The translations under genes were made by a program, and so were the position numbers. Below the pieces are notes generated by a model that had not been told where the DNA came from, did not search any database, and saw nothing but the letters and a program-made list of their open reading frames with translations. A stretch of 64,000 bases of DNA from Porphyra umbilicalis. Lineage: Eukaryota > Rhodophyta > Bangiophyceae > Bangiales > Bangiaceae. The stretch covers positions 354,956 through 418,955 of the forward strand of contig KV918780.1 of the NCBI GenBank assembly GCA_002049455.2. The letters are read 5' to 3'. Below are positions 398 through 34,315 of the stretch, one piece after another; position 1 is the first letter of the stretch, and each line of letters starts with the position of its first letter.

Positions 398-3127
398 ATG
401 GTCGAGCCAGAGCCCAGCCCGGTCGCGGAGCCGGAGCTGACCAAGACCGAGCGCCGGCTGTACGTGAGCTTCTTTGACAACCTCGGGATATCAGATGAGA
501 AGCAGATCGCCTTCCTCGCCACGCTGCTGCGCAACGTCTTTGAGGCATCCTCCAAGCTGGACTCGCACCTGGCGCCGCATGGGGCTGCGCTGCACTCTGC
601 CGTCAGTCGCATGCAGGTGTCGGACAACCCGCGGGACGCGCCCACTCACCGATGGATCCGAGTGGTTGACCGCCTGGGCTTCTTCTCCGACACTAACTCC
701 CACGCCGAGCGCATCGTCAACGTCGGGCTCTCATTTGCCTACCGCCACCTTGAGGTGGACGCCCTCGCGGAAGCAAACGCCATGCTGCTTCGCCAGGTGC
801 AACCGGCAGCAACTGCGGCCGCCGAAGAGAACCCAGACGGCGGGGCGACTGCGGCTTTAACAAGAGCAGGACAAGGCGGCGGCGGTGGGAGCATGGGCGG
901 TGGCGGTGGGGGCGGCGGCGGTACGGGCGCCGAGTCGGAGGGGCTGCCCCCGATTGATGCTCCAATGGAGCAGGACGAGGCGGACGACGACGAGCGCGCG
1001 CTCCCCCCGGGGGGGATGGCCTTCTCGAATCTCCCACCATTGTCTGGACTGGGAGCGGGCAATGTTGCTGGCCTTGCCCACCCGGCGGCGGCCTCGGCGG
1101 GGGGCTCTATTGTGACGGCCTTCACTACCACGAGGGCAAGAGCTGTCGGGGGCACGCCGACGGGGGGCGTGACGGACCAAGAAGAGCCGCTCCCGCCCGG
1201 GGCGGTAGTGTTTGCGCCAAGCAATGCCGCGGCGGCCGCTGTTCTCCACGCCGGTGGCCAGGCCGCATCCGCGGCAGACGTCACGCCCAACACCGGCGGT
1301 GGTGGAGGCGACGCAGAAGAGGAAGAAGATCACGTCGGTAGCGGCTCGACCATCCCCCCCCACGTGATCTACGACCGCCAACCGACAGTGGTGCCGAATG
1401 AAGCTGCGGTAAAGCTGGTCGAGAGTGTTCTGGAAGGCGTCCAAGACCGCTCCGACGGCATCTCCGTGCTCCGGCAACTGTTGGATGACAGCGTGCTGGT
1501 GCTCGGTCGGTCGTCCTCGCGCCCCGCCACCAAGCCCAACGGCAAGGTATGGCCGAGTGGCGTTAAGGGTGACAGGATGGCTCTTGCAAGACGCACGGAC
1601 GGGTGGTGGCCGCAGTGGCGCGCCCCTCAAGACCTCCCCAACAGCATTCCACCTGTCGGGACGGTGGCGTACGCGTTCAACCGCAACAGGGCGTCGGCGT
1701 CGTCGCGATGGGTCATCTTGATTGACATGGGCGGCATCAACGACACCATCAAGGGCCTCTCCATCCGGTCCGCCCGGTACTTCCCCAAGGATGCTCTGGT
1801 GCCCGTTGAGAAGGTGCAGCGCCTTTGGGGCAAGGCGCCTATGCGCTTTCCCGTGGTCGTGGCGTGTATGATGCTGCTTGTAACCAAGGAGGAAGGGTAC
1901 GGGACTACCTTGGCCGACCTCGCCGCAGCCGGCCGCGCCACCATCCCCAAGAACACCTCTCTGTTGTCGGCGTCGTGCCACGAGTTCAACACGTCCGGGA
2001 TTGCGGCTCCGGCTGCTCCCACTGGTCTTCTAGGCGGTCCCCCCGACGGTTCTCCGGCGGCCCAGCAGCTCCCTGACCATCCACGCGACTCCGACGCCGA
2101 GCCCGACCACCTCTCACAGCAGTACGCGGAAATGGAGGTCGCGTTGGCCAGCGAGGACCTGGAGATCAAGACGCAGAACCGTGCTCATCGCGCGCGTGTG
2201 CGCAACGCCAAGACCCGGGCTTCCACTACAGCTGCTCGTGCCGCAGCTCCCGTGGCTCGCTCCACACCAGGTGCAAACGTAGTCGTGGCACGGCCTGCTG
2301 CAGCGGCCTCGTCCGTGACGGCGCCTTCCAGTTCCACGGCACCCGCATCAACGGGACCTACGCGCCTACCCGCTCGCCCAAGGGCGCGCTCTGGCGGGAC
2401 AAGCGCGCCGCTCAGGCCCGCCAAGCGACCACGGACATCCGCGAGCCAAGTCTTGGCTGGCGGCAGTTCGGCGGCAGCCGCCCCTGCTGGTCAAAGTGCA
2501 GGAGCTGCGCCGGGGGCCGGATCTGCGAGTGTGGTCGGCGGAAGCGGCGGAGTGCCCGTGGGTGCTGCGACAGGAGGTACCTCTGCTACTGTCGCAGGCG
2601 GTCCTGTCGGTAACTCTGCCGCCTTGGTCCGTCTTGTCGTCGCGCCTACTGCCGCGCCCCCTGGAGGTGCCACGGGTGCTGTCCCACGGCCTCGCCCACC
2701 CCGTGTACCTGTGCATGGCGGCGCCGGTCCGGTTGGGCCCCCAGCTGGCGGCGGTCGGCCGCCTATCGCCACAGTGGCGGTTCCGAGGACAGGGACACCA
2801 TCCGCTCCTGACGCAGGCAACCTGGCCTTAGTAGGTGGGGGCTGTGATGTAGTCGCTGCAAGCAACAGCGCAGAGCCTCCTCCTGTCTCTGTTTCTGCTC
2901 CTCTTTCTCCTCTCTTATATTCTTCTGCATCTGTTCTCTCTGGGAGTCCTGCCGTTGACACCTCTGTCATATCGGCACCGTCCGGGAGTCGCAGCGCCGC
3001 AGAGTTTGCGGAGGAGCATAGGCAGAGACGCGCGCGTGTTGAATCTGACCTGCGCGACGCACAAGCGTCGCGTTCTGCCGTACTTTCGGACAGGCACGAG
3101 TCCTGGACAGGTGGAAAAGATGCATGA
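398..3127 (+). CDS. Unknown element-encoded protein, left copy (909 aa)
   Basis: I recognise no family. The protein is defined by its relative at 26123-28948. Residues ~15-130 are strongly shared (including HRWIRVVDRLGFF at 84-96 and HAERIVNVGL), as are residues ~320-600 (YDRQP, RWVILIDMGGIN, a hydrophobic stretch followed by VTKEE, and QQYAEMEVALA). A short basic/acidic C-terminal segment around 867-904 (ARVESDLRDAQASR) is also shared and is probably helical. Between the blocks lie Gly-, Ala- and Pro-rich linkers that differ between copies. The ATG at 398 is chosen because homology to the second copy begins about 15 residues after it. The gene converges on the Pif1-like helicase with only 44 bp between the stops. 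The frame is intact although the neighbouring element genes are broken. No transmembrane segment or known enzymatic motif is evident. A DNA-binding or structural role in the transposon is a guess. Confidence 0.7.
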   Translation: MVEPEPSPVAEPELTKTERRLYVSFFDNLGISDEKQIAFLATLLRNVFEASSKLDSHLAPHGAALHSAVSRMQVSDNPRDAPTHRWIRVVDRLGFFSDTNSHAERIVNVGLSFAYRHLEVDALAEANAMLLRQVQPAATAAAEENPDGGATAALTRAGQGGGGGSMGGGGGGGGGTGAESEGLPPIDAPMEQDEADDDERALPPGGMAFSNLPPLSGLGAGNVAGLAHPAAASAGGSIVTAFTTTRARAVGGTPTGGVTDQEEPLPPGAVVFAPSNAAAAAVLHAGGQAASAADVTPNTGGGGGDAEEEEDHVGSGSTIPPHVIYDRQPTVVPNEAAVKLVESVLEGVQDRSDGISVLRQLLDDSVLVLGRSSSRPATKPNGKVWPSGVKGDRMALARRTDGWWPQWRAPQDLPNSIPPVGTVAYAFNRNRASASSRWVILIDMGGINDTIKGLSIRSARYFPKDALVPVEKVQRLWGKAPMRFPVVVACMMLLVTKEEGYGTTLADLAAAGRATIPKNTSLLSASCHEFNTSGIAAPAAPTGLLGGPPDGSPAAQQLPDHPRDSDAEPDHLSQQYAEMEVALASEDLEIKTQNRAHRARVRNAKTRASTTAARAAAPVARSTPGANVVVARPAAAASSVTAPSSSTAPASTGPTRLPARPRARSGGTSAPLRPAKRPRTSASQVLAGGSSAAAAPAGQSAGAAPGAGSASVVGGSGGVPVGAATGGTSATVAGGPVGNSAALVRLVVAPTAAPPGGATGAVPRPRPPRVPVHGGAGPVGPPAGGGRPPIATVAVPRTGTPSAPDAGNLALVGGGCDVVAASNSAEPPPVSVSAPLSPLLYSSASVLSGSPAVDTSVISAPSGSRSAAEFAEEHRQRRARVESDLRDAQASRSAVLSDRHESWTGGKDA

Positions 3128-3171
3128 GATGAGTACGGGGATAAAAGGAATACCAATTCACGTTGTTTTGC

Positions 3172-5658
3172 CTAAAGTCGCCGCCACTCGTTGTATAACT
3201 TCAAGGCACACTGGTCAGCAAACAAACGGCCGGCGCTAAACGACTTGACGTGCAGCCGCGCCTTGTCCGGCACGCGGCTCAAAGCGGTGTGGACCATGCC
3301 GGCCTCAAAGCACTCGGAAAGGTCAAGCACCGCCTCGGAGATGCTCAAACTCTGGGACATGTGGATGGTGCTTGCCCACCCCAACACCAACGGCACCTGC
3401 GTGCGCACCGCCAGAACACCGGGAGCCGCGAGCACACGCGCCGCGAACTTGACTGCAGGAAATGCAACCTCAATCCAGGTGTCGCCCCTGTCACGCAGGC
3501 CCCAGTTGCCGCGCTCGATGCCCGCGGGCAGGACGTGATTCTCCAGCCGCACACTCGGGCTACCGTCCGTGTCGTCGTAGCCGACAATGAAGCCGATGCT
3601 GCCATGACACACCCCCAGGTCCTTCTTGCGGTTGGATATGACCATCACACGTGCGTGGAGGCAGTGGGAAATCGCTGGCGGGGCGACGCAGTCGGCCAGC
3701 GCGGCCGCCCTTGTGTTGGCACTCACGCCCTCAAGGTTGGGCGCCTTACGCGACATGTCCCTGTCGGGGTCGAGCTCCACAGAGTCCACCGCCGTGAACA
3801 CCTTGGTCGGCGCGCCACGCGACAAGCGGGTCAGGCAGTCGCGGTTGTGCTGGATGACAGCCCTAAGCCGCGGCATCAGGTGAAAGATGGATGTCTTGAT
3901 CTCTTCGTACGCGCTCCCCTCAATCGAGCAGTCCTTAATCAGCTGCTCCACCGCTTCGGAGCTGTTGCCCAACCGCGCGTCGCGGACCGCGCGGATGAAA
4001 CCCGGCTCGCGCTGCCGGAAGGTTCCCGTGAGCTCCAAGAAGGAGTTGCCAAACAGGGTGCTCCAGCACGGCGCCGTGTACGCCATCTTGCCCTGAACGG
4101 GGCCAAGCGGCAAGAAGTCGCCGAAGGCAAACCACAGACAGGGCCTGGCGTCCGACTGGACGCTGGCCAGGAGCTCAAACATGACGCTGAGGTTGGCAGC
4201 CGACACGAGGGAGATCTCATCGAGCAGGAGCGCCCGCACTTCTCGCAGCCGGTCTTTGATGGGCCCGTAGCGGCCGGTCGCCAACAAACGCTCCGCCTCC
4301 TCCTTGGGGTCCAATCGAAGTGGCACGTACTCGCGACCAAACCCAAAGAAGGAATGGTAGGTCATACGACCTGCCGTCTTGGCAGACGTACCGGTGGGCG
4401 CCAGCACTACCACCTCGCCGTCCGCCGTGTACCGCTCTGACAGGAAGGAGCCCAGCTTCCTCAGGAGCGTCGACTTTCCAGCTCCCGGGCCGCCGGAGAC
4501 AAATGCACTGTTGATCCGTGCAAAGAGTTGTTCACAGACGTCTCCCCATCGGCCGGTTGCGGCAAGCCGACCGATAGGTGGCACACCCGACGGAGCATCC
4601 TCCAGGTCAGCGCCTTCGCCGTGGCGAGGCCCACCACGAGCCGCATCACGGCCACGCCGCACAGACCCGACGCTGGCGTGGCCACCCTGCCGCACACCAG
4701 CAACCCCGCGTGGTGCCCGTCGCGCCTCATCCTCTGGGACCGCGCCAAGAACCTCCACCGGCAGCGACCTCCGGGAGTCGCGTGAAGACGGTGGCTCTGC
4801 AGTAGTCCACGACGCCCGCCCGCTGCTCGGACAAGATGTTGACGGTGTGCGCGGTAGCGCCCGCAGCTCCAGCTGCCCCATGGACGAGACGTGCGCCGCC
4901 TGCTTGCGCCGCTTGGCAGATGACGGCGATCGCGGCGCGCTCACCACCGGCCTTGCGCGGAAAGGAGGCGCCACGTCCGAGCAGTCAAGCTCAACCACAT
5001 CGTCGTCGGATAGAAACGCTGATTCTTCACTGCTTGATGTCGCCGCCGAGCGCTTGGCAGGCAGAGGCGGTCGTGCGCCCATGGTTCGAGCGCCCGGTGC
5101 CCGACTACAAGAAGCGCGTGAGCCGCTCATGGCCGCCGTGCACGTCCGATCGGGAAGCAGACGAAACGCGGGGCGCCCGGCAACACCGGCACCAGGGATG
5201 GGCAAAGCATGTACAACCTCCAGCAACGCCTTGCCGACGTCGGCGACAAGCCACCTCCACGCCGAGGGCGTCGAGACGAAGCGCCGGATGATGCAGGTCC
5301 CCACCACCGCATCGTGCACCATGGCCAACGCGGAAGCACAGCCCCGTGCGTCGAGTCCAAAGCAGCTGGCTGAGGAGTGCGTCCTGATCGCCAAGCAGCC
5401 GTCGTCGTTTGTAGCCGTCTGGTGCTGCTCGTCGCACACGGCCGCGTCCGCGGCGACCGCCTCCCGGTGGGTAGGGTTCGTGAGCCAACACAGGGCCTCC
5501 AGTTGAGTGGGGAAGCACCGCGTGGCCGAAACGCCGTCGCCGACGAGGGAGAAGACGCGCTGCCCAATGTTGACGTCGTCCGACTAGTTGTGCATGGCAC
5601 ATACAGCACCCGAGTGCAAGGCAATGTACCTACTTCCAGGCGGAGCGACGGACGCCAT
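3172..5658 (-). pseudogene. Pif1-family helicase of left KDZ element, with an internal stop
   Basis: This encodes a superfamily 1B (Pif1-like) DNA helicase, an ATP-driven 5'-3' unwinding enzyme. Visible motifs in order are Walker A GGPGAGKST, a TGTSAKTA motif Ia, Walker B LLLDEIS, FGDFLPLGPV (motif III), GTFRQREPGFI (motif IV) and the Pif1 C-terminal signature LGWASTIHMSQSLS...ALSRV. The N-terminal ~110 residues match the right copy (ATRCF, ALCWLT), which places the ancestral ATG at 5658. In that frame the Trp codon of an HNW motif in the other copy is TAG here (5584-5586), so only a shortened product starting downstream could be made. The helicase core itself is open. Its stop is 44 bp from that of the convergent unknown protein. 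Host Pif1 is unlikely because the gene is duplicated together with the transposase genes. Confidence 0.85.
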
Positions 5659-7729: not shown

Positions 7730-10700
7730 TCAATCCCCCTGCTCATCCCGCCACCTGCCATTGTCTCCATGTTCATCAGATGCCTCCACCTCATCCCAGT
7801 CAAGAACCCCCCCACTGCCGGCCTGCATGTCCTCATCATCAGCCCCCTCTACACTCGAATCCACGCATTCCCCCGCATCTTCAATGTCAATGTCCTGCCC
7901 TCCCACCTCTTCTTCTCCCACCCCACCGACCGTGCCGCCATCGTCATCCCCCGACCCGGCGGCGACCTCCCCGCGCTCGCTGCCGGTGTCACCCACGTCC
8001 TCTCCAACACCGTGCTCAGCGACCCCCAGCTCGGCGCCGTCTTCCGTGACCGCATCATTCTTGTCCACCGACTCATCATCAGACGTCGCCGGCGTCGTCG
8101 TCCCGCTTGTGGAGGTCGGCTCGGGGACGTTATCAGGGACGTTGTCGGGAATGTTGTCGGGGAAGTCCAAGTCGTCAAAAAACAATGCGAGCGTAATGCG
8201 GCGGCGCACGGCGCCAATGCTCGCCTGGGAGAACAGCATCGGGACGCCGAGGGAGAAGCAGTCAGCTGCAGCCAACACAAAGAGCCCGCAGCTGCCACCG
8301 TCCGTCTGCCGCGGCAGCCCGAAGTCGAGCACCACCCGCCAATGGGCAACGTCCCACTCGACCGCGACGTCGTGCCCCAACCGCGCATCCACCTCCTGGT
8401 GCAGCCACTGCTTCAGCACCGGCACGGTGCCCCGGGAGTCCTCCATCGACAGAGAGTCGTAGAAGTGGAACTCGCGCGCGCCGACATTAATGGCAACCAG
8501 CACCCAGTGCGATTACGAGACAAGAACGGGCACCAGCACCACGTCCACGGCCGTCAGATCCAACCCCAACTTGACCCCCCAGCGGGACACACCGTCGTAG
8601 TCGACAAAGCCGCTGCGCGGTGACAGCCGAGAGAAGAAAAACGTGTTGAACATCACCGCCCTTGGCGGCGGAGAGTGGTCAAATGACCGCGACGCCGCGT
8701 CCCGGTACGCAGCCGCCCGACTGCGGTGTCTGATGAGCGCCGAAAATGAGTTCATGAGCTCATCACTCAACCAAGCCTCGCGACGCAACCGCCTGATGTC
8801 CACGCCGCGGAGGAGGATGCGCGCCTTGTTGACTGGGAGAATCGCCTTGGCGACCGGCCGGTTCAGGAGCTCCCGCACGAGCCGTCGCTGTGCCAACGTC
8901 ACCGGGCAAGTAGCAATGGCGGAGCTGCTGCGAGACGTCCGGGCCGACGACCAGGCGTTGAAGGCCCCCAGCAGCTGCGTGTGCCACATCACCGTCAACC
9001 CGTCGGCCTTGTCTGCCACCGGCCCTTTGTTGATAATGACCCCGTCCTCGACGTTGGCACTTGGAGCGGCATCGACGCGCGCAACGCCGCTGTCCTCGTC
9101 AACGTCAAAACTCCATGGCTCTTGCTCCCCCGCTGGCGCCGTAGCGCCTGCCACCCCGTCCGTCGCGCCGCCGCTGAGATCTGGTGGAGCGGCTGCCTCG
9201 GCGCCTTGAGGTTGTTCCTCGCCACCGGGTTGACCACTTACTGGCGCGGAGCCTGCCTCCGTGGGCTGGTCGACGTTAGCAAGGCAGGCGATGGTGCTCG
9301 CCGCGGACGCACATGTGCACACGGTGACGCGCTCGCACTGGTGCAACACCTTGTCGTGGAAGAACGGGGCGAGCGGCACATGGTCGTTCTCACCGACCCC
9401 GTTGCCGGCTTGCAGGCGGTACAACTTCCGCAAGTTGGCAAAGGCCACCTGCACCATGCGATGGTACATGTACGTCGATGGCGCCATGTAGGCGAGGCTC
9501 GTCCGGTTGACAACGGCGATAGAGTGGGACACCTCGGCCGCCTGAGTGGCGACACCGGCGGTCGTCCCAAGGCATTCGTCAGGCATGTAGATCGGGGAGC
9601 ACGAGTGCGTGATGGAGTGGGGGCGGTCGAGAATGCACCGCACCCCATGCGCGCGCATCAGCTGCCGCACCCGCCTCATCGCGTTCTTGTCCAGCTTGCA
9701 TGCGACGTCATAAAAAATAGCCTTGGGTAGCTTGGCAAAGCGCTCGAGCACAATCGACAACGCCTCCCCCACCCTCTCCGCGCGGAACAAACAACGAAAG
9801 CCCAAGGTTATAACATGAGGGCAGACGACGTTAAACACACCTTGAGTGAGGCCCGCCTTAATCGAGAACGCCTTGTTACACGCGTCGCCCTCCCCCTCCA
9901 GGTCCGCCTTGTGCCGGTCCTTGCCGCGGTATTGTACACGGCGCTTGGCCGCCTCCGAATCGGTGATGCCAGGGCGCACGCGCGGCAAACCCGCAAAGTA
10001 CTCGAAGCTGACCAACGGGTCGTCCTCATCCAAGTCCTTCAGGTGCAGCTGCTCGGCCGTCCACTTCTTGTATTCAGCCGCCGTTGGCCTCCCCTTCCAC
10101 CGCTTGCAGTACTCGGCGTTCTTCCACGCCGCCGCGAGCGTCGTCTTGTTGTTGGCGACCGCCTTGAACGTTTCATCCACGTACTTCTCCACGTTCACGG
10201 CAGCGAGCAGCAGGACCCCCACGGCCTGTCGCAGGCCACGGTCCTCATCGAGCTGCTCCGCAAACCACCCGAGGAAGCCAGCGACAAATCCAACGCCGTC
10301 AACTGCCGTGGTCAGGGACCGCCACGTTCCGCGCCGCATGAGGCGGAGCGTGTTGGCGAGTAACCGCACGGCGCGCTCGTCAAAGGCCTGAAACATGCCC
10401 GACACCGTCTCCGTGAGCATCGCCTGGAGGAAGGGGCGGACGCAGATCCAAAGCCCATCGTCGTTGCGCGGGTAGCGGTCAAAAGCCGGGGCGCACATAC
10501 TTGTCCGGTCGCGCCACGTCTCCGCCGGCGTCTTTGCCAGCGGCCCCTTGCCGCCAAGGACGATCGCACCGTCCTTGTCGACGCGAAGGGCAGCCTCCAA
10601 CCCGCCGCCGGCACTGAACCGACCGCGCTTGGCGGGGCGCTCGGCCTCAATGGGCGCAGCAGCAGAACTGCTTCCCACCCGCGTGGCTCGGCTTCGCCTC

Positions 10701-12904
10701 ATCTCGGAGTTGACCACCTGCTCGCGGCCAATGGGGAAGAGTCGAAACAACACTTCCGCTGCCGCCGCCTCTAGTGACGGACGTCCCGACGCGACGATCT
10801 TGTCGCGCCACGTGCGGAGTAGGGTGGCCTGCGCGGCCGTCAGCGGCGCGGAAGTGCGCAGGACCTTGGTGATGGCCGCACGCAGTTGAGCATTCTCCAA
10901 CACGCACAGCTTTGGAGCCGGGATGCTAAGCACCGGGCAATCCTCGGCGGGGCGAAACGGTGTGGTGTCGTCCGGATCCGAGCAGCCGAGCGACTGGGCG
11001 TCGATAACAATGAACTCGGGGCTTGGGCCACATAGCGTGCAGCGTGCCGTCTCGGCAGGGATGTGGAATGTCTTGATTGCCGCCGTGCCCAGCTTCACCA
11101 CGTCTTGGCGTCGTAGCGCAAACGACATGACGTCCGCCGACAAGTGACGGGTTGCGGCCGTGTACGTGGTGCGGCCCGAGATGATGAAAGAGAGAAGCTT
11201 GTCGATCAGCCCCCTGGTGAAAAGCAACCACCTCCCGTTCTTATTGCGGCGCTGCATCGAGAAGAGCGCATCTGCAGTCCCGTCGTACTCCACGACGCGC
11301 TTGCAGGCTCCCGTATCGCATACCCACCGGCCGACCAGCACCTGTCCAAAGCCAATATCAGAGACGAGCCAAGGGAAGCACCAAGAGAGATACTAGACAG
11401 TCAGTAACTGCTTGACGATACAGATGAGGATTCACTCGAGCACGCTCCCAGGTACATACGCGCATGCAAGCAACAAACTGTGGCACAGACAAACCATTAG
11501 AGAGCAACGCAACATACCTTCAGTGCCGGAGCCGTCGGGTGGTGCGTCGTCAGCAACCCGGGCTCAGTTTGCACCTTGTGGCGCTCATCCCGCTGTTGGC
11601 CGCAGGTCCCACAACGGGCTTCCACCAGAGGTAGACGCGTGTCCCGCAGGTAACCTTTGGCAAAAGCGGTAGCGATGGTGATCTGCAGCAGCTTAGAGGC
11701 ATCAGCGTCACCAGCTGTGCCGGCAGCAGCGTGCTGCTGCACCAATCCTCGCCAGTCGGCCGACCGGTTCCACACCTCCCCTTGGGCGAGCGCCGCGCAT
11801 TGTGTCCGACGGCAGCTTCTCCAGCCCCTCGTCCTCCTCCTCACTGGCGAGCACCTTGTCATACGCGACGGGGGGCGGGCGCCGCGCGTCGGCTCGGGCC
11901 TTGACGACGGCGGGAGCCGTCCCGAACTTGGCGTCATTGTTCCCGTCGGGCCCCAGGCGATCGCGTGCTACGCGCACATGACCGCAGCGGCCACGGAAGC
12001 GTCGGCAGCACGGCGCGATGCACGTCGCGGCGTTGGCGCCACTAAACGTCACCAAGGAGAATACCGAGTGGTAGAGCACCGACCAAACGACGGCCGACCC
12101 GTAATCCTCGGCGACGGCAAACTCTTCAGCGTCGGCGCGCAACCTCATACGCGAACAAAACGTGCTTGCGTTGACGCCCGAGGATAAAAGCGCCTTGCGC
12201 AGCGCCGCCGTGTGCTTGCACGTCGAGCTGCGAGAAGACACGGAGAGGAAGAGCGTGTTCTCATGCCCGCCAAAGCAAGAGCACAGGAAGCCGTCAAGAC
12301 TTGAAACCCAGAGGATGAACGAGTCCCGCTTGCCCGCCCCTTGCCGCACGACAATGGCACGAGAGCGCGAGTTCTTATCGCCAACCACCCGAGCCGTCAC
12401 CGCCGAGACCTGCTTGGCCATCGGGCGCGAAGAGGGCAGCCCGCAGGTGCGGCGGATGCACGCCGCAAGGGCCTCCTCCACATAGTCCTCCACGAGCACG
12501 GGGTCGCGGCGAGCGTGGTCACGAGGAGCACGTGGCGCGGGAGGTTGACCGCCATCCTCCTCGCCGTCAACCTCATCGTCACCCGCGGCCGCTCCTAGAT
12601 GGTTGGCCGACGTTTTACCGGCCATAGTAAAGCGTCGCGGCGCCACACGCCGTCGACGGCGGAAGCCACTTGCCGGCGCATTAGATCCACCTTGACGCGC
12701 GTTCTCAATCTGGGAGCTCCACCCCCGAGCAACTTGACCACCATGGACCGTACCTGGAAATGCAAGCACCACAGCGCCCACAGATGGACAGGGGGGGCGA
12801 GGGGCGACCGAAGATGCGACAGCTTGAGCAGCCGCTCGAGTGCCGACAAAAGGGAAGCTGACGCAATCCCCCGTAGGCCCAGCAACGCCGTCACCAGCAG
12901 CCAT
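7730..12904 (-). pseudogene. KDZ-type transposase with SWIM-like, Cys-cluster and Ulp1 domains, left copy
   Basis: This is the transposase of a KDZ (Kyakuja-Dileera-Zisupton) element. Exon 1 (12904-11518) carries a SWIM-like zinc motif (CSC...CKH, residues ~208-231) and further Cys/His pairs (CCRRF..CGH, CGTCG). A 176-bp intron follows (11342-11517, GTATGT...CAG). Exon 2 opens with VGRWVC and a CxxCG cluster (CTLCGPSP) followed by IDAQSLGC, the Cys cluster typical of KDZ proteins. The transposase core lies around 9,600-9,900 (LTQGVFNVVCPH, FYDVACK, LDRPHS). The C-terminus is an Ulp1/C48 cysteine peptidase: His in SHWVLVA (~8,495), Asp in FYDSL, and Gln/Cys in RQTDGGSCGLF (~8,283). A long acidic tail follows. 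Two lesions are visible: a deletion with frame change near 11,820, where the right copy has ~17 more residues, and an in-frame TAA at 8513-8515 just before the peptidase His. It is therefore inactive as a full protein. Confidence 0.85.
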
Positions 12905-12924
12905 AGGTGTGCATCGAAAAGGCG

Positions 12925-13575: not shown

Positions 13576-13799
13576 CGACACGTTGGGGGTGCTAGAGTTG
13601 AGTAGATGTCGTCGTGATAGGCGCCAAGCAGGGGGGGTGGCGGCGGTGGCGGGGCGGGCGATGGCAGGGCGCAGCCGCAGCGGCCGCGGCGGCGGCCAGG
13701 GTGACGACGACGACGGTCGAGGGGGTGCCCCAGGCCGGCGGTCTGCGCGTCCGTGTGTGGCGAGCAGGCCGTCACTGTCGGGCAGTGCTGCAGCACGTG

Positions 13800-18500: not shown

Positions 18501-20684
18501 GACCCGTTGGTGAGCTTCAAATACTTTGCCAGCTTGCCGAGCGTGCGCCCGGGCATCGGCGACTCGGAAGCTGCCAAGCGGCGGGTGCAGTATCGCGGCA
18601 AAGACCGGCATGTGGCGGACCTGGAGGGGGAGGGTGACGCGTGCAACAAGGCGTTCTCCATCTGCACCGGTCTGACGCAAGGCGTTTTCAATGTCGTTTG
18701 CCCCCATGTAATCACGCTCGGCTTCCGCTGCCTCTTTCGGGCCGAGAGCGTTGGGGAGGCGGTGTCGATTGTGCTTGAGCGCTTCCCCAAGCTCCCCGCT
18801 GTGGTCTTTTATGACGTTGCCTGCAAGTTTGATAAGAACGCGATGAGGCGGGTGCGCGCTATCTTCCGTGACCACAAGGTGCGCTGCGTGCTGGACCGCC
18901 CGCACTCGATCACCCACGGTTGCTCGCCGATCTACATGCCGGACGAGTCGCTCGGTACGACGGCGGGCGTTGCGACGCAGGCAGCGGAGGTCTCCCACTC
19001 GATCGCAGTCGTCAACCGCACGAGCTTGGCATACATGTCACCGTCGACGTATATGCTGCACAAGATGACCCAGGTTGCTTTCATGAACTTGCGGAAGCTG
19101 TACCGCCTGCACGGCGACATAGGCGCGGGCGAGAACGCTCACGTGGCCCTGGCGCCGTTCTTCCACTCCAAGGTGGCGCACCAGTGCGAGCGGGCCTCTG
19201 TGTGCTCTTGCACCCCCGATGGGTTTCCAACCGCCGACGGCGACGAGGTGCTCGGAGACAGCATCGCTGCCAACGACGTGGCCGCGGGTGACTTAGCCGA
19301 CAATGTCCAATTGCATGCCCGCGCGGCATCGGGTGCGACGGCAGAGCCCTAAAGTGGAGTGGACCTTGGCGACTCGGATGGTGCCGGTTGTGCGCCGGCA
19401 GCGGCGGCGGTGGTGCCGCTGGAAGCCTCTACCATCGCACGAGCCACCGGGCTCGGCAGCGGCGTACCGAGCGCCGCCGATCTTGGCAGATCCTGTGCTG
19501 GCGCCAACCCGGGAGATCCGCCAAGTGAAGACGTCGTTGACGTGGACGCGACGGATCGGGATTGGATGGAGAGCGAGGGGACTGCGGTAGACTGCATGGC
19601 GGTGGGCCCCATCCAGTCGTTGGTGTACCCGGAGCTGCATGCTGCTCATGGCCGTTGGGTGGCCGGTCGGGCATCCCGCGGATTTGTGCCGTTGGCGACG
19701 ACCCCTTTGAGCAAGGTGCAGCGGCAGCTCGTACGGGAGCTGGTTGGCGCCTCGGCGGCGGCGATTGTGCGGCCTGAGAACAAGGGCCGTATGAAGCTCG
19801 TCGGGGCCGACTTTCTGCGACTCGGAGGCGTGGCGTGGTTGAGCGGGGAGGTGATGAACTCTTTCGTCGCGCTCGTCAACGCCCGCGACGACCGCGGAAG
19901 ATTGAGAAGCACGACGGCCGACTCCTCCAACAAGCCGTCGACCCTGCCACGCACGCGCATGCTCAACACCCACTTTTTTTCTCGGCTCTGCCTCCGCCGC
20001 GGCCACTATTGCTACGACAATGTGCGGAGGTGGGGCACCAAGGCGGGCGTCGACCTGGAGAATGTCGACAACATCATCATCCCGGTGCACCTCAACAACG
20101 CGCATTGGCTGCTGGTGGTCGTCGACGTGGCCAAACGGGCGTTCGTGTTTTACGATTCGCTCTCCTTGACCGATGCGGAGGACGCAGTCGGCGTTGTGCG
20201 GCGATGGTTGAGCGACGAGGCTCTTGCTCGGCTGGGGAGCGCCGCCTCCACCCGATGGGCTGTCGACACGTGGGAGGTGGTGGTGGACCCGACAACCCCG
20301 CGGCAGAGCGACGCGGGGAGCTGCGGTGTGTTTGCTCTGGCTGCCGCCGACTGCTTCTCTCTTGGCGTGCCGCTGAGTTTCTCCCAGAGCGAGGTACCTA
20401 CGTTGCGGCAACGTATTGCTCTTGCGCTGTTTTTTGATGACTTGGATTGTGACTTGGATGTTTCTCATTGTGTACGGCTGACTGCGGTAGCCCCATCTGA
20501 TTCAGACGAGGAGGGTCCCGCCTTTTCATCTGATGTTGATGAGGTCTTTTCCGCGTCTGAAGGTGATGATGGGGACTCGGATGCGGGGGACCCTGGTGGG
20601 ACGGCGGGGGAGGACGATGGTGGGGTTTTCGTGGATGGCGATGCGGGGGTGGCGGCATCGGTGATCGCACCGGGTGGGGAGTGA
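15575..20684 (+). pseudogene. KDZ-type transposase with SWIM-like, Cys-cluster and Ulp1 domains, right copy
   Basis: Its domain order is that of the left copy: SWIM-like CSC...CAH near 16,160-16,230, Cys/His pairs, a 164-bp intron (17000-17163, AAG|GTATGT...CAG|GTT), VGRWVC, CPLCGPDP and IDAQSLGC, then the KDZ core at 18,650-19,100 (LTQGVFNVVCPH, FYDVACK, LDRPHS). The Ulp1/C48 peptidase ends the protein: AHWLLVVVD near 20,100, FYDSL, and RQSDAGSCGVF near 20,310, followed by an acidic tail. The ATG at 15575 is the first in frame; homology to the left copy (FPFxGTR) starts a few residues later. Three lesions occur: TGA at 16424-16426 where the left copy has Cys, a small deletion changing frame near 18,125, and TAA at 19350-19352 before the peptidase. 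None of these matches a lesion in the left copy. Confidence 0.85.
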
Positions 20685-23410
20685 GTGCACCGAGGAAGCC
20701 GCTCCCAAATATAAAGCCACTCTGAGGTAGTCATGCAGCTGTCGCCAAAAGAAGCAAGCCAGTCATACTCGGCACGAGCACGAACACAACCATGCTGCTT
20801 TCTACCTCTCGCTTTTTTGGTGGCAGTAGGTGCCTAGGTCTGCATAGGGGGTCCTCAAGAAAGGCGACGCTGCAGAGTTAAAAACGATTACGTACACGTC
20901 ACGCCGTCCGAGACGCTGTCATTACTCGGCTTTCATTGGTCGGGTGCAAGCAGATATGCGATCAACGATCTCGACGTCTTGGATCGCCTTCGCGGCGCTC
21001 TGCAATGGTGGCCCTTGCAGGGCTACCTGCGTCGCGGCGTCGCCTACGCCGCCCCCACCCCGTCCGCCAGTGGCCTGACCAGTGCGCAGCACGGTATGGT
21101 AGAGCACGCGCATGCGGTGCGAAGCACCAACAGACCCTACACCAGTTCTCGTACCGTTTCGCGTAGGACCTGCAACAGCAGGGGTGCTTGGGAATCGTTG
21201 GCCAGACCAGCGACTTCATACCAGGCACAAACACCAGGGTGGCCGGAATGCAATAGCGTGTCAGAAACACGGCGGCGGTAGCTGGTTGTCAGCCGCACGA
21301 CTGCCACTCAGCCCCGGGTGCCACGGTGCTCGTGTAGACGCCAGCAACTGCACATGCTGTCGTTCTTGCAACCAGAACCGAACCCAAGTATGTGATGCTG
21401 GGAACGAAGATACGACCATACGAGCGGGATTGGCTACGTACAGCATCCCAAGAGACAGCCAGGTGTACACGCGGTCCGCCGAGGTGTGCGCACCCCCTGG
21501 ACAGTGTGTATGGAACCATTTAACAGCCGCACTCACATACGAGTCAACTCCTGTGGCTGTCCAGCCGCACCGTTCATCCAACTGATGGGGCATTGACTGT
21601 GATGCGCGGCACAGCCTAGAGTACCGAATGTCGAGCGACACAAGAATCCGTCCCATGTGCATGTACCCCACGAGGCTGGTCCCCGGTTGCGTGGTAGGTA
21701 TTGAAAAAGTGATGACTGCGACATATAAAAGGGGGCCGCAATCAAGAGACGAACACTGCAGTAGTCCCAGGTGCCCCATCATGCCCTGAGCAAGTCCCAT
21801 CTCTGCCATCAAAGCAGACACCAGATGGACACACACGATGAGAGCTCGCTGGCTGTGAACCATGGACACATTTCAGTTGGTGCTGCCAGGCATGAAAGCA
21901 AGCTCTTTCTCATCAGGATGACTCGCATTCATGGGGCGGTCAGATCAACCATCTGGTCAGTTGCACACGCTCCTGAGGGTGACTCAGCGGTGTGGCCCGT
22001 GGGCTTCGCTGCAATAGGGATGAGATGGGATTCGACGAACCGCGAGGAGCAGAGACAGGCCTAAGGGATGCCGCACTGATGAGCGGGTACGAACTCGCTG
22101 CATGCTACTGTCGGTTCAGGTCTCTTGTTCTCTGTGCGCTCACCAGTCGGTAGTGCAATGAACGACATCGAAAGAAAGGCAGCACACATTTCCATCTCGG
22201 GTGCTTGGCTCAGAATCCGGTGCCAAGGCAGATACAATGTAGCTCACAGACTGGACTACCTGTATCCATCAAGCACACCAATGAGGCCTGGTCTTACTCA
22301 ACTGGGAGGCGTCCGATGTCATGCGATAACGTGCCTGGGAGCGGCCGAGCTGCACGGCCACATACATCCAGCAGTCTTTTCAGAGTACAATGGGGTTTGG
22401 GGAGTCAAAAAGATGCAAGGCACGGCCAGAAGTAGGGATGGCGGTCGGGGACGCGGCTCCGCGGTCTGTTTTCTTCAGCCATTGAGGTGATTTCACCACC
22501 CCACCAGGAAAACCAGGCTCGTGCAGTTCTGTCACGTTTGTGTATTACCTACGCATAGTGCCGGGGTAAGATACGCCGAGCAGATATTCTACACGTCGGC
22601 AGCAGTGGCCGTGGCGGTCCAGAACGCAGCTGCCGGGGCTGGCGGTTTCAACGAAGACGGTGCGATCCGCCGTCTCATCAAGAAGACGAAACTTGGACTT
22701 GCACCCGAGGTGCATGCAAAGTAAGTTGTCGATGACAGCGATGAACGATAAATATCTCCGCTTCAAGAAGCACCGGTGCTGAGATAGAACCGCAAGATCC
22801 GGGACGCTTGGCGCTGTTTTGCGCTTCTTTGCTTCCCGCGCTCGTCGGACCCCGCCCGAGCCCACCATTTTGCTCGACTGTGTCGGTCGGGTGCGTGTGC
22901 GGCCATAACCGTCGTCCAAGAGGCGGGTTTCTTCTTTCGTGCCTGTCTGTTCTTCCCGCCCTGGTCCACCAAGATACCGGGGGGCGTTCAACCGGGCACG
23001 TGCCCTGGCATTGGTCAAGGACTGGTGCACTGCCGCGAGGGCTGTCGCTTCAACCGGGGTTCCACGGCACACATTGTGTCATCCACCAAGGTTCGTACAG
23101 TGTCCTCCTTTCTAGCTTGCATTTCCTCCCCCCCAGGCCCCCCACCGCATCGTCTCGCGCAGGTTGATGGCAGCGTGTGTCCTTTGTGGACGTATCCCGT
23201 CTGTACGGCTCTTGGGTGCCGGCTGAATTGGCCGGGCTGGTGGAGCAGGTCGTGGGGCGAGTTGCCCGCCGTTCATTGCTCGACCACTCTGTTTCTGACG
23301 CAGGTTGTTTCTCATGGTCTATCGGGTGCCCTCCCGGGTTTGATGGTCGCTCCGCCCCTCTTCTCTCTTCACATTGTCAGGGTGCAGCACCGGTCCACGC
23401 GGAGACCAAG
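20685..23410. other. Spacer between transposase and helicase genes, right element
   Basis: No protein family is recognised, and only short frames are present. Composition from about 20,700 to 22,800 is noticeably richer in A and T than the genes on either side. A TATA-like CATATAAAAGGG lies at about 21720 on the + strand, in the direction of the helicase gene, but 1.7 kb upstream of its ATG. The last few hundred bases before 23411 are pyrimidine-rich and may hold a 5'-UTR with introns. Confidence 0.45.
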
Positions 23411-25983
23411 ATGTCGGCGCCGAGCGCCCCCAACCTCAAGTATGTGGCCATCATGTCACCGTCGCTGTGTTTCATTCACAACTGGTCGGACGAGCCGCGC
23501 ATCACAAGACGGCTCAGTGACGGCCACGAGGCGAGCGTCGTCGCCACCCGCTGCTTTGGGACGCAGAAGGACGCGCTGTGCTGGTTGACCAGCCCGGTCT
23601 ACAAGGAGGCCGTTGCCACGAGCGCCTCCCTAGCAAGGAAGCTCCCGTCTTCCACGGCCGCTGCGAGTACGTCATGGTTGGCGCTCGTGTCGGCCACCTC
23701 ACGAAGCTGCTTTGAGACGGACGAGGCTGGTTTGTTGGCGACCCTCTCGGCCGTGCAGCAGGAGGCCTGTATCTGCGGAAAGTTTTCTTCTGCGACGCGC
23801 GCCTGGGAGTGGCTCGACGGTGGCTCGGCGTCCTCCTTGTTGGAGGTGGTGGGTGGGCCCAACGTCGTGCCCTCTTCAATGGCCCCATCGGCTGAGGCGG
23901 AGCTCTGCCCCGTTGCTTCGCGTGGGGCCGGCTCGGGCTCGGGTGTGTCTGTTGAGGCCTCGGCGCGCTCGCCGATAACCTCCTCCCTATTGGCTCCGCT
24001 GCCTGGGCTGCGTCCCCACTCGACCGTGTCTCGTGCACCTTCCCGTCTGCGTGCGGCCTCCGTCTCGTCAGCGCGGCTTGGGAAGCGCGCCCTCGCACCG
24101 TCGGCTGTGCCTTCGGGCTCCTTGATGCCGTCTGCGACTGGTGTTGTTTTGGCCGCGTCCGAGGGGTGTTCCACGTCGGAGACGGCTTCTGACGGGGACA
24201 GTTTCAGTCAAGGGGGGGCGTCGATGTTCCGCGCACTGCCCAAGCGGCACAAGGGCACTCTGTGCGCCGCCACCGAGCAGCTGCATGACTCGCCGGCGAC
24301 GAGCTCGGACGGCTCTGCCTCGCTGATATCGCTGCCTGACCTCGTCGACTGCGGGTGGTCCAACGACTCAAGGGCGTCCACGCAGGACGCCGGGAGCATT
24401 GCGATCCACCAACTGCTGCGGTCATCCGACCGTCGCCGCTCACAAGGAGATGGGCGTGGCCACCGTCGGGCCAGAGCCCCAAGGGCTGCGGCGGGGCGCG
24501 CCGAGACCCGCGGCAATGGCGGTTATGACGACGGCGGTGGCGGCGGCGGCGATGCCGAGACGGCCGCCTCGTCAATCAGCGACCTTGCCGGCGCCGGCGA
24601 GTGGGAGATGGTGTGTGAGCACCTTTTCGGTGGCATCCAAAGCGCCTTCATCTCGGGTGGGCCGGGGGCCGGGAAGTCGACGCTCCTACGCCATCTGTTT
24701 GACTTTTTGCGCAAGCGCTACTCGGCGGAAGGCGAGGTGGTGGTCCTGGCGCCGACCGGCACGTCAGCCAAGACGGCGGGTGGCATTACGTACCACTCCT
24801 TCTTCGGTTTCATTCGGGATTACGACCCCTTCGGCGTCGACGCAGCCGCGGAGGCCAGGCGGCTCTTGGCCACGAGCCGCTTTGGCCCCATCAAGGCCCG
24901 CCTACGCCGCGCACGCGCCGTCTTGCTGGACGAGGTGTCGTTGGTGGGGGCAGACAAGCTCGAGGTCATGCATGAGCTGCTCCTGCAGTCTCGGTCTGAG
25001 ACGGCGCGGCCCTGTTTGTGGTTCACCTTTGGTGACTTCCTCCAACTGGGGCCTATCAAAGGCGCTCCCATGGCTTTTGCCGCGCTGTGCTGGGACAAGT
25101 TGTTTGGGGGGGCCTTCCTCAACCTGCCCGGCGCGCGTTCCGTCAGCGCGACGCGGAGTTCATCCGCGCCGTCCGTGACGCCCGGGTGGGCGAGTGCTTG
25201 GCCGCTGTCATGCAGCTAGTGGCCGATCGCTCGGTTGAGGGCGCTGAGTACGACAAGATCAAGTCGCACGTCTTCCACCTGATGCCACGTCACAAGGATG
25301 TGCTCGCGCATAACCGCGCTTGTCTCCAGGACCTGGCGGGCGGCGCGTCGCCCATGGTGTTCAATGCCGAAGACGGCGTCGAGGTGGACCCCGACCGGGA
25401 CGAGTCTGGGCCGCCGCCTAATCTTCAGAACGTGCCCGAGTTCTCACGCAAGGCGGCGCTCTCCGACTGCGTTGCCCCCGCCACTGTCCCCCATTGCCTG
25501 CACGCGCGGGTCATGATCGTGAACAACCGCATGCAGCCGCTGGGTGTTTGCCATGGCAGCACTGGCTGCATCGTCTCTTACGAGCCGGACGGCACGCCGG
25601 TGGTCCGATTGGAGAACCACGTGCTTCCTGCTGGCGTGGAGCGGGGAAGCTGGGGCTTGCGGGACGCGGGGAGCAACTGGTTGGAGGTGCTGTGTCCGCA
25701 GGTCAAGTTCACCGCCCGGTTGCTTGCTTTTCCTGGCCTGTTGGCGACGCGTACGCAGGTGCCGTTTGTGTTGGGATGGGCTACCACCATCCACATGTCG
25801 CAGAGCTTGGGCATTTCGAGCGCCGTGCTTGACTTATCCAGTTGCTTCGAGGCCGGCATGGCGCAGACGGCCATCAGCCGTGTTGGCACCAAGGAGGGCC
25901 TCTTCTTCAAGTCGTTTTGCGCAAGCCGTTTGTATGCCAACCCGCTTGTGTTGAAGAAGTACAGTGAGTGGCGGCACTTGTAG
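23411..25983 (+). pseudogene. Pif1-family helicase of right KDZ element, frameshifted
   Basis: This is an SF1B helicase homologous to the left copy. The N-terminal region (YVAIMSPSLCFIHNWSDE, ATRCF, ALCWLT) precedes a long Ser/Ala-rich linker. The core then follows: Walker A GGPGAGKST (~24,660), TGTSAKTA, LLDEVSLV, FGDFLQLGPI, FRQRDAEFIRAVRDAR, and the C-terminal LGWATTIHMSQSLG...AISRV. At about 25,131-25,137 an extra CG dinucleotide in GCGCGCG shifts the frame between FLNLPG and FRQRD, so the protein is interrupted inside motif IV. Both parts are otherwise open. The ATG at 23411 aligns with the ancestral start inferred for the left copy. The stop is 139 bp from the convergent unknown gene. 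Confidence 0.85.
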
Positions 25984-26122
25984 TCCCTTTCCCTTCTTCT
26001 CTGCCTAGCTTTTTTCTTATTCCTTTCCTACGGGACGTCGCGCATTACTCTTGTCATTGTACATCTTTCCTTTTGTTCTCTGGTTCAAAAGGCAGGCACG
26101 AGCTTCGGCGCGACTCGTCCAT

Positions 26123-28948
26123 CTACTTAGTGGTATCCGTCCCAGTATCTTCACCTGGCCTAGTAAAAAGCTCCGTTGACAACCCCAGAGCTACCAAAGA
26201 GGCACGGCTGGCATTGAGGTCCGAGTCCACACGCGCATGCTGTGCCGTCATCCTTTCTTTAAACGTCAACGGAGCAGCAGGAAGCGCGGCCACAGCGTCC
26301 TCCCCACCAGGATCAGCCAAAAGGGCATCCACCTCGCCTCCCGCACGAGGAGCCGGCAGAGCAGCCACGTCGTCTCCCCCAAAAGCCGGCGTGTCAGGCG
26401 AAAACAAGGCGCCCCGTCCATCAATCGGCAAAGGTAACAACGGAGATGCAGCGCTGGGAGCAGAAGGCACATTCGGTGCATCAGCACCAGGCAGCTCCAG
26501 GAGGCGAGCCACCGGCGCGCCACTTGCGGTCGGCACCGAAAAAGGAACAGTACTGGCGCCAGACGTCACCGGAGCCGACGGGGTCGAAGGCCCTGACGTT
26601 GACACGGTCGATACCGACGCGCCAGCGGCGGCCAAGGCCTCCATGACCAACGCACTGCCATGTCCTGCCGCACCGCCGACAACAGCGGCCCGAGCAGCAC
26701 CCCCAGGCGAGTCACCTTGAGCCGGCACACTACCCCGCCCGCGGCCGCGGGAGCTTCTACCTCCGGCATTGGAGGCGCCTCTAGACAAAGCGCCACGAGC
26801 ACCTCCACCTCCACGTCCAGCTCCACGCCCAGCAACGGGACTGTGGCTTGATGCGGCTGCGTGCCCGGCCGTGCTCGCCGACAGGGTACGCGATGGTCTC
26901 GTCCGCTTGACACCCCGAGGCGGTTTGGCCCCACTCGCCGCCGAACCAGCGAGCCCGCTGGCTGCACTCGATAAACCGCCCAGCGGAACGGCAGGCATAC
27001 CGGGCACCGGCGGCGGCATGGTGGGAGCTCCCGGTATGGGACCGCCGGTAGGCACTGGCGATTCCCCAGCACTAACCCCTGGTCCGACCACGACGTGCAC
27101 TGCTGCTCCCCCACCAACCCCCGACGCGACCAATGCCCCGCGCCCAGCTGCCCCCACACCAAACGTGGCTGCCGATCCTGCCGACACGGTAGCGCCTCCG
27201 ACGGAGCCGGTCGGCGACCCCGACGTCAAAGATGGTCGTCGACCCTTGCCTTTGTTCTTGATCATGCGTTCCGCTCGCCGCAGAGTCGCCTCGTTAACGC
27301 TCTCCTTCTTCAATGCCACGTCCATGTCAGCGTAGCGCTCGTTCAGATCGACGGCATGTGGGCTGCGCAACGCCGCAGCACTTGATGCAGGGGCGCCTGG
27401 GCCTTGGAGGGTGCTGCTGCTGGCCGCCTGCTGGGAGCCAGGGGGTGTGGCCGTCGTCAACCCGTCGGAGAAGAACTCGTGGCGGAAGGCGCTGGTCAGC
27501 GGCCCGACCTTGTTGACAACAGCACGCCCGGCAAAGGCAAGACATGACAAAATCTCAATGAAGCGCTCCTCCTTCGTTGCTACCAAAAGCAGCGCCGCAA
27601 TGACGACCTTGAGCTTCATCGGGGTCTTCCCGCTCACGCGGACGACGTGCTCCACGGCGGGGAGGTCCTCCTTGTTGAAGAAGCGGGATGGCTTCACCGT
27701 GATCTCCTCCATTGTCGGGTTGACCCCCTCCATGTCCACCACGATGACCCACCTTGTCGTCTTGGCCAGCCGCAGGGGGTTGACCTTGAAGGAGACGGTT
27801 CCCGGAGGGGGACTCGTGCTGACGGGGTGCGTCGGTGAGTTCCATTGTGGCCACCCGGCGGAGCACGTGCGATATATCGCCTGGTTGTCTGCCTTGTTCG
27901 CCGCTGAGCCGGTAGCGCCCATAGCACCCTTGGCGTACGCCCCGGTCCGCGCCAATTTCAGGATGGCGTCGCTCAACAGCGTGCGCAGCATATCCGCGCC
28001 GTCCTCGTACGCTGACACCGTCCGCAAAACCGCCGAGACGATCCCCACAGCAGGTGCAGGGGGAAGAACACTCGGCTGCCGCTCAAAGATGAGATGCGAC
28101 GGAGCCGCTTTGCTTGCGTCGTTGGTACCCAAGTCGTCGCCGGCGTCACCTCCACTGTCGGGGTCCGCGTCATCGCCCGCTCCGTCGCCCACGTACGCGC
28201 CCTTTTTCGCTTTTGCGCTCGCGGTGGCGGCAGCGGCGGCGGTAGTGGAGGTGGCGGCGGTGGCGGAGGAGGCGGCGGTGGCGGAGGAGGCGGCGGTGGC
28301 AGGGGCAGCAGGCATGCCGCTTGTCGTACCCGACACAATCAATCCACCCGGAGGCAACTCCGTCTCGCCGTCTTGATCCCCACTCCGCGGGAAGTCCTTG
28401 CCGGCCGAGACGACGAGCCCCCCGACCGGCAGTGGGTCCTCGGCATTGACAAGGCTCGCATCTACCAGGCCAGCTTCGCCCTCCTTGAGCCCGCCCTTGT
28501 CTGCACCCGTAGTTGCCACCTCCACGCCACCTGGCGGCAGCTTGTCGTCATCTCGACCAGCATCAGTAGATTGCATCTGCTGCCGCAGGGTAGCACTGGC
28601 TCGAGCCAGAGCATCCAGCTCCAACTGCCGGTAGGCGTACGCCAGCCCCACGTTGACGATGCGCTCGGCGTGGTCGTCGCCGTCCGCAAAAAAGCCCAGG
28701 CGGTCGACCACGCGGATCCAGCGGTGGCTCGGAGCCTCCCGCGGATTGTTTGGCACAGCCATGCGGCTCACGGCGCAGTGTACCGCCGCCCCGTAAGGTG
28801 CCAGGTGCAGGTCGAGCTTGGAGACCGCATCAAACGCGGTCCGCAACAGTGACGACATGAAGCCCAAGTTTGCATCATCCTCAATCCCCAGGTGCTCAAA
28901 AAACTCAACAAACAGGTGCCTGTCCGTGGCACAACGGATGGGATCCAT
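26123..28948 (-). CDS. Unknown element-encoded protein, right copy (941 aa)
   Basis: This is the relative of the protein at 398-3127, with no known family. Shared blocks are residues ~8-125 (FFEHLGI, SSLLR, HRWIRVVDRLGFF, HAERIVNVGLAYAYR), a central block (FERQPSVLP, GWPQW, RWVIVVDMEGVNP, VATKEE, NERYADMDVAL) and the C-terminal ARVDSDLNASRAS. The rest is low-complexity Ala/Gly/Ser/Pro sequence, including a perfect-looking Ala/Thr/Ser tract near 28,240-28,320. The start at 28948 (MDP) is chosen because homology begins shortly after. A splice-like TATGCAG sits ~20 bp upstream on the coding strand. The frame is unbroken. Convergent placement with the helicase is the same as in the left element, which argues that the pair is a functional part of this transposon type. 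Confidence 0.7.
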   Translation of the reverse strand: MDPIRCATDRHLFVEFFEHLGIEDDANLGFMSSLLRTAFDAVSKLDLHLAPYGAAVHCAVSRMAVPNNPREAPSHRWIRVVDRLGFFADGDDHAERIVNVGLAYAYRQLELDALARASATLRQQMQSTDAGRDDDKLPPGGVEVATTGADKGGLKEGEAGLVDASLVNAEDPLPVGGLVVSAGKDFPRSGDQDGETELPPGGLIVSGTTSGMPAAPATAASSATAASSATAATSTTAAAAATASAKAKKGAYVGDGAGDDADPDSGGDAGDDLGTNDASKAAPSHLIFERQPSVLPPAPAVGIVSAVLRTVSAYEDGADMLRTLLSDAILKLARTGAYAKGAMGATGSAANKADNQAIYRTCSAGWPQWNSPTHPVSTSPPPGTVSFKVNPLRLAKTTRWVIVVDMEGVNPTMEEITVKPSRFFNKEDLPAVEHVVRVSGKTPMKLKVVIAALLLVATKEERFIEILSCLAFAGRAVVNKVGPLTSAFRHEFFSDGLTTATPPGSQQAASSSTLQGPGAPASSAAALRSPHAVDLNERYADMDVALKKESVNEATLRRAERMIKNKGKGRRPSLTSGSPTGSVGGATVSAGSAATFGVGAAGRGALVASGVGGGAAVHVVVGPGVSAGESPVPTGGPIPGAPTMPPPVPGMPAVPLGGLSSAASGLAGSAASGAKPPRGVKRTRPSRTLSASTAGHAAASSHSPVAGRGAGRGGGGARGALSRGASNAGGRSSRGRGRGSVPAQGDSPGGAARAAVVGGAAGHGSALVMEALAAAGASVSTVSTSGPSTPSAPVTSGASTVPFSVPTASGAPVARLLELPGADAPNVPSAPSAASPLLPLPIDGRGALFSPDTPAFGGDDVAALPAPRAGGEVDALLADPGGEDAVAALPAAPLTFKERMTAQHARVDSDLNASRASLVALGLSTELFTRPGEDTGTDTTK

Positions 28949-29629
28949 GCCGGCGGTAGCGGTTTGACCTGCATACGGAGAAGTAAGAACGAAGGGCCAA
29001 TCGGAAGAGAAGAAAAGCACCCGTGCGGGAAACAGTTGAAGCTGTATGTGAGACGCTGCCCATAGCATCGCGCAAGTCGGAGACAACCGGCGCCGCCCAC
29101 AACCAACCGCACCACCTAAGACACTCAATGCAAACGCTTGGATGACATCGGCCAGCTAAAACCAATGAGGCAAACGTGACCAGTAGTGCTCCCGTACCTT
29201 CTGATGATCGTGTTGACGAGACAGTGCGTCACGCCTACCGTCCTGTTCGTCGCGTTGTCGGCACGGTCGTCAGCACCGACAGCCCCGCGGTCGAGAGCAA
29301 TCATCGAGCGTCACAGCGAGCCGAGCTCAGAGACAGTACACACCGCCACCGTACGCCGCTCGATGGTGTGCAGTCCCCACAAAAGATGCAGCCGCGAGTG
29401 CGCAGGTCGACGTCGTGGGCGCCATCTTGCTCGTCGTGGAGATCGCCGTGGTGGCGGATGCCAGAAAGCGCGCGCACGCTCCCTGGCCCCAATCACACAC
29501 GGCAATGGGATTCCCGAGAAGCGTACAATCGCCTGCAGAGGCACAAAATCCATGGATGTTGCGCGGAATCCCTCGAAGCAATTGTCGATGATGCATACAT
29601 TTGCCCGCCCCCCCCCCCCCCCCCTTACG
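28949..29629. other. Outer flank of right element
   Basis: This is the region upstream of the right unknown protein. It is mixed sequence with short frames only and no recognised gene. It ends in a 17-nt C run at 29608-29624. It presumably contains the promoter of the minus-strand gene. Confidence 0.4.
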
Positions 29630-29667
29630 CGCTCACATCCGCGCTCGCACGATGTGAGTGTGAAAGC
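29630..29667. repeat. Possible outer terminus of the right element
   Basis: The segment has CTCACATC, an 11-bp spacer, GATGTGAG and then TGTGAAAGC. The inner end of the same element at 14176-14212 reads GCTTTCACAC, nine bases, ACTCACATC, A, GATGTGAG, which is the inverted equivalent. The shared words (10 bp plus 8-9 bp and the same small hairpin) suggest a terminal inverted repeat. However, the 21-bp core seen at the centre is missing here and no target-site duplication is visible, so this is tentative. Confidence 0.35.

Positions 29668-33951: not shown

Positions 33952-33991
<40 letters not shown>

Positions 33992-34270: not shown

Positions 34271-34315
<45 letters not shown>

Follow-up and report, generated by a model that had tools for sequence, protein, structure and literature searches.

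Two KDZ-like DNA transposons in head-to-head arrangement in the red alga Porphyra umbilicalis, with a probable independent insertion of the right element

We have analyzed a 64,000-nucleotide stretch of the Porphyra umbilicalis genome (the window) in which two large arms with the same gene set face each other in opposite orientation. The arrangement is best explained, with a probability of about 0.82, as two separate KDZ-like DNA transposons that lie head to head, 98 bp apart, and of which the right one inserted alone. The right element occupies 14154-29689 on the forward strand, and its 15,536 bp are enclosed by 8-bp direct repeats. The left element would end at 14055 and run on past the left edge of the window.

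Mirror order and divergence of the two arms

From the outside towards the center, both arms carry a gene for an uncharacterized protein, a Pif1-like helicase gene, a gene for a KDZ-like transposase joined to an Ulp1/C48 protease, and a tandem array. In the left arm these features lie at 398-3127 (forward strand; 909 aa), 3172-5583 (reverse strand; an open frame of 803 codons), 7730-12904 (reverse strand; protease part C-terminal, first in-frame ATG at 12904) and 12957-13554 (3.4 copies of a 176-bp unit). The corresponding features of the right arm lie at 26123-28948 (reverse strand; 941 aa), 23486-25983 (forward strand; homology from 23486, with a frameshift near 25133), 15575-20684 (forward strand; first in-frame ATG at 15575) and 14629-15469 (about five copies of a unit of about 170 bp). 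The uncharacterized gene is convergent with the helicase gene in the left and right arms alike, and in both arms the array is situated just upstream of the transposase gene, at most about 110 bp from its first in-frame ATG.

Self-comparison of the window yielded inverted matches of 67-75% DNA identity at 524-768/28849-28605, 3175-4566/25979-24584, 8166-8314/20446-20298, 9317-10561/19205-17968, 10860-11300/17645-17205 and 11976-12544/16470-15911, and tblastn searches with five query pieces from the left arm paired all three genes between the arms. Both results agree with the claim of an earlier note on this DNA that the same gene set occurs twice in opposite orientation, with the array ends facing each other. 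The two arrays have a same-orientation core in common, but 10 of 200 shuffles aligned with at least its score, and homology of the arrays is not claimed. A search of 29701-64000 found no third relative of the arms, and the sole match of an RNA-family search of the window was a tRNA located far from the elements.

The Peptidase_C48 profile scored 48 bits in the left transposase-Ulp1 gene and 89.9 bits in the right. The right Ulp1 part matched SENP1 in the PDB (E 1.2e-19) and displays what we take to be the catalytic His, Asp and Cys motifs. The left helicase scored above the cut-offs of AAA_30 and AAA_19 and just below that of PIF1, and its best PDB matches were PIF1 helicases (best E 6.7e-23); the right helicase scored 32.2 bits with the PIF1 profile, above its cut-off. 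The uncharacterized proteins of both arms had no Pfam or NCBIfam match, and the predicted structures were too poor for use, with a mean pLDDT of 31 for the uncharacterized protein and 32 for the left transposase.

Both transposase genes are interrupted. In the left copy the reading frame changes near 11795, at a gap of about 60 bp relative to the right copy, and a TAA stands at 8513-8515. The right copy has a TGA at 16424-16426, a frameshift near 18123 and a TAA at 19350-19352. The left helicase gene and both uncharacterized genes are uninterrupted. Because four host-type open reading frames of 539-645 codons in the window (nitrite/sulphite reductase, malic enzyme, a Hint protein and a DUF4246 protein) are also free of interruptions, the breaks in the element genes more likely reflect decay than sequencing error, and short introns are conceivable as well. 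With both transposase genes broken, movement would probably need an intact transposase copy elsewhere.

Protein identity between the arms amounts to 69% for the transposase core, and the remaining parts range over 34-63%. Long transposase blocks outside the core reach 54-63%, and the C-terminal portion with Ulp1 reaches 44%; the values are 63% and 40% for the C-terminal and N-terminal parts of the helicase, respectively, and 34% for the whole length of the uncharacterized protein. The values for the transposase core, the other long transposase blocks and the C-terminal part of the helicase confirm the earlier estimate that the proteins differ at about a third of positions in their conserved parts. 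In the aligned coding DNA, 31-49% of positions differ in seven long blocks, and 26% differ in the transposase core. Silent sites gave a pS of 0.54-0.73 and a dS of 0.97-2.62 across seven aligned blocks, in which dN/dS is 0.14-0.36. The spacer DNA between transposase and helicase has no similarity above shuffles between the arms. The high dS, the low dN/dS and the non-aligning spacers thus characterize the arms, as judged from their sequences, as old and long-separated lineages, each with selection on its proteins, rather than as products of a recent duplication in place. An inverted duplication of one element in place would account for the identical gene set and its mirror order, but the silent-site divergence contradicts it unless the event was extremely old, and both the spacers and the direct repeat that belongs to the right arm alone (described below) speak against it; we regard it as exceedingly improbable. 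The earlier note had argued that a recent inverted duplication, or a mirror produced in assembly, would have left near-identical arms, and this argument is correct.

Limits of the right element and structure of the junction

The octamer CGGTGGGG is present at 14146-14153, where it adjoins the first base of a 22-bp tip, and again at 29690-29697, just past the right arm. No other 8-mer is common to 13990-14190 and 29600-30050 on the same strand, and the match is maximal at exactly 8 bp, with no extension on either side. The decamer GCTTTCACAC occurs in inverted orientation 22 bp inside both boundaries, at 14176-14185 and 29658-29667, on the same diagonal as the CGGTGGGG repeat. With up to one mismatch allowed, this decamer has two occurrences in the window, and these are at the two ends of the right element only. 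When random position pairs were sampled and 61 symmetric offsets were allowed, 33 of 20,000 local pairs and 92 of 20,000 window-wide pairs matched over 8 bp at one of them; these fractions are somewhat optimistic, as CGGTGGGG is GC-rich and was drawn from a scan of 7- to 10-mers in which six 7-mers were also common to both regions. On this sequence evidence, the CGGTGGGG pair looks like the target-site duplication of the right element, and 14154-29689 like one insertion made alone. The direct repeat also moves the best right end to 29689 from the 29667 proposed earlier.

The two ends of the right element are asymmetric. The inner end (14154-14394, forward strand) consists of the tip at 14154-14175, followed by GCTTTCACAC and six inward-facing CAGACA motifs, two of which overlap, whereas CAGACA is absent on either strand from the right outer end at 28949-29689. 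The outermost segment (29632-29689, reverse strand) carries the inverted GCTTTCACAC 22 bp inside its tip, together with a CTCACATC/GATGTGAG hairpin of the kind found near each end of the element. The two tips, CGTGAAGG and GAGATAGG (reverse complement), mismatch at their first 5 bases and match at 8 of their first 22, and the score of a local alignment between the inner and outer ends was reached by 15 of 500 shuffles.

The inner end of the left element (13814-14055, reverse strand) has its 22-bp tip at 14034-14055 and contains four inward-facing CAGACA motifs and one that faces outward. Its boundary at 14055 was placed by the 22-mer common to both arms, which is identical in the two inner tips (22/22 positions, vs 20/50 in the next 50 bp). 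No left outer tip was found in 1-430, where six tip strings were tried and the best matches had 2-6 mismatches; position 398, which had been taken as the start of the pair, is merely the first in-frame ATG of the left uncharacterized gene. In the right arm, the start codon of this gene lies 741 bp from the outer tip, and only 397 bp are available in the window on the left, so the left outer tip is expected a few hundred bp past the left window edge. No similarity of positions 1-397 to element ends is claimed: of 200 shuffles in each comparison, 75 reached the score obtained with the right outer region, 137 that with the left inner end and 14 that with the right inner end.

The 98 bp between the inner tips comprise a 90-bp spacer (14056-14145) and the inner CGGTGGGG copy. 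The first 8 bp of the spacer (14056-14063, GACGGCGC) are the predicted target-site copy of the left element. Of the 6-mers that are present in both inner ends with a total of at least four copies, CAGACA shows the strongest enrichment, with four copies on the left and six on the right vs 0.11 expected. Inward orientation was found for 10 of the 11 copies in the two inner-end segments, the outward one being that at 13889 in the left element. The extended motif YCAGACA has 18 copies in the window, of which nine fall in 13780-14400, all nine (9/9) facing inward. We consider the 22-bp tip and the subterminal CAGACA repeats to be candidate transposase binding sites of the inner end.

The center as a whole (13814-14394) forms an imperfect palindrome with 60% identity (E 8e-17), in which CCAATCAG, CAGACA and the tip are alike on both sides. 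Such a center might be the common middle of a recurrent composite unit, about 30 kb long, whose arms move together and whose two diverged transposases are transcribed outward. The blocks alike on both sides are consistent with this, the lack of similarity between the transposase-helicase spacers makes the center appear specially conserved by comparison, and no second copy separating the arms was found in the viral and prokaryotic collections searched. However, the right arm is flanked on either side by a direct repeat of its own, whereas a unit of this kind would carry the duplication at its outer ends, and conserved inner ends are also expected of two elements with a common recognition sequence. 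The composite unit is therefore disfavored, and we consider it quite unlikely. Two possibilities had been raised earlier, namely an element inserted beside a relative and a recurrent head-to-head unit; the first gains support from the right arm's own 8-bp repeat and the age of the two lineages, and the second is the less likely.

The perfect 22-bp inverted arms, and the strong fold of 13960-14260 (z -8.0), would also suit a separate small inverted-repeat element (MITE) of 142 bp at 14034-14175. This candidate was rejected as highly improbable, since it lacks flanking direct repeats of 3-10 bp, also when a slip of ±3 bp is allowed, and the 8-bp repeat in its interior would have to be a coincidence. 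An assembly artifact, in which two unlinked elements were merged midway by the assembler, is very unlikely. Tandem arrays and GC-rich hairpins do flank the supposed join, but the window contains no N (0 bases), and the perfect stretch common to the tips, at 22 bp, would not be long enough for an assembler to merge sequences by overlap in the usual way. In addition, the repeat ties 14146-14153 to 29690-29697; if it is a true duplication, the inner flank of the right element is authentic, and any false join should lie within 14056-14145 or to the left of it.

Family assignment and comparison with known elements

The KDZ transposase domain (PF18758; Pfam cut-off 26.6 bits) was recognized independently in both arms, at 26.2 bits (E 7.6e-6) on the left and 26.1 bits (E 8.5e-6) on the right, which is 0.4-0.5 bits under the cut-off; a shorter piece of the right transposase scored 25.4 bits. 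A CxC4 cysteine cluster was matched in the right arm at E 0.013 (15.8 bits vs a cut-off of 26.9); in the left arm, a search at E 0.1 did not list it. Taken together with the 8-bp duplication of the right element, the domain matches make KDZ the best assignment, and the label is kept at KDZ-like since both scores lie just under the cut-off.

According to the accessible part of PMC12730594, Zisupton and Dileera elements make 8-bp target-site duplications, and they resemble the right element in this feature and in a KDZ-type transposase domain. They differ in that the extreme tips match poorly in the right element and in that the KDZ score here is just under the cut-off. With respect to the terminal inverted repeats by which Zisupton is recognized, the right element has GCTTTCACAC inverted at 22 bp and tips that agree at 8/22 positions. 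The helicase and uncharacterized companion gene found here are not described for KDZ elements in that part of PMC12730594. Giant families of Ectocarpus (KDZ, EnSpm and Sola-1) carry accessory genes and frequently pseudogenized transposases, as stated in the accessible portion of PMC12477816, and the present elements are like them in both respects. The giant KDZ elements of Ectocarpus and Chlamydomonas, which are likened here by description only, are also similar in their large size, but the descriptions at hand contain no head-to-head pairing.

Large multi-gene transposons are already known in red algae. The En/Spm (CACTA) elements of Chondrus measure 16-20 kb and contain 4-5 ORFs (PMC6431247, from its accessible text), and giant En/Spm elements of red algae are mentioned in PMC12477816 as well. 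En/Spm elements have 5'-CAC..GTG-3' termini and 3-bp duplications in the account of PMC12730594 that we could draw upon, whereas the right element has the tips CGTGAAGG / GAGATAGG (reverse complement), without 5'-CAC..GTG-3' termini, and a repeat of 8 bp instead of 3 bp; En/Spm membership was therefore rejected.

Origin of the pair and its significance

For two separately inserted KDZ-like elements, it is hypothesized that the transposase would bind the 22-bp tip, which is identical in both, along with the CAGACA repeats close to it, excise the element and insert it where the target is cut with an 8-bp stagger. Transposition may be assisted by the helicase and the uncharacterized protein, and the Ulp1 part may strip SUMO from the transposase or from chromatin. 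Retention of the 22-bp tip in lineages with 31-49% coding divergence suggests that each element could be moved by the transposase of the other.

Their closeness can be due to chance in a transposon-rich region, to local hopping, or to attraction to the end of another element. Drosophila P elements often insert beside another P element in inverted order. They have a different transposase, and for the diverged relatives studied here an insertion preference is a possibility. That the 98-bp spacing follows a rule, by which transposase bound to the resident tip and CAGACA repeats guides an incoming distant relative to a site beside the tip, in inverted orientation, seems unlikely to us; if such tip-guided insertion were true, elements of this type would build mirror pairs. 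A literature search found no report of a head-to-head pair of such elements among the titles and abstract openings listed. No further relatives were found in the viral_contigs, genome_contigs and phages collections, which are viral or prokaryotic and say nothing on algal copies; the peptide patterns used in part of these searches were few and short.

The preferred reading of two separate insertions removes the tempting interpretation of the region as a mirrored composite. Overall, the biology of the pair is unexceptional, and its use lies in the definition of element ends. A large, little-described group now has precise ends, an 8-bp duplication and candidate recognition motifs, and more copies should be findable by pattern, namely CGTGAAGGAATCGGGCGCATCA followed 100-250 bp further inward by a cluster of CAGACA motifs.

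Transposase N-terminal parts

The N-terminal parts of the two KDZ-like, Ulp1-fused transposases (15557-16426 in the right arm and 11708-12928 in the left arm) share a CxC...CxH pattern, which resembles a SWIM zinc finger. A Pfam search of these regions in both arms returned no match.

Genes and repeats elsewhere in the window

A trypsin-like gene is surrounded by the GC-rich sequence of 30001-35000, which has 76-87% GC per kb and long runs of G and C. The tRNA gene at 45629-45713 was predicted by ARAGORN, which could not assign it and reported a four-base anticodon, 'ccaa'; its identity as a tRNA is backed by Rfam (48.7 bits). An ORF at 51721-53658 carries a Hint (hedgehog/intein) module (domain match, E 7e-20). 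A further tandem array (63105-64000; 164-bp unit, 94% matches) extends to the window edge and overlaps an ORF at 62451-63587, for which searches against Pfam and NCBIfam gave no match.

Spacer between the element tips

The GC-rich 90-bp spacer between the left tip and the inner 8-bp direct-repeat copy of the right element (14056-14145) contains a near-perfect palindrome (14069-14092), and the spacer could be a preferred target.
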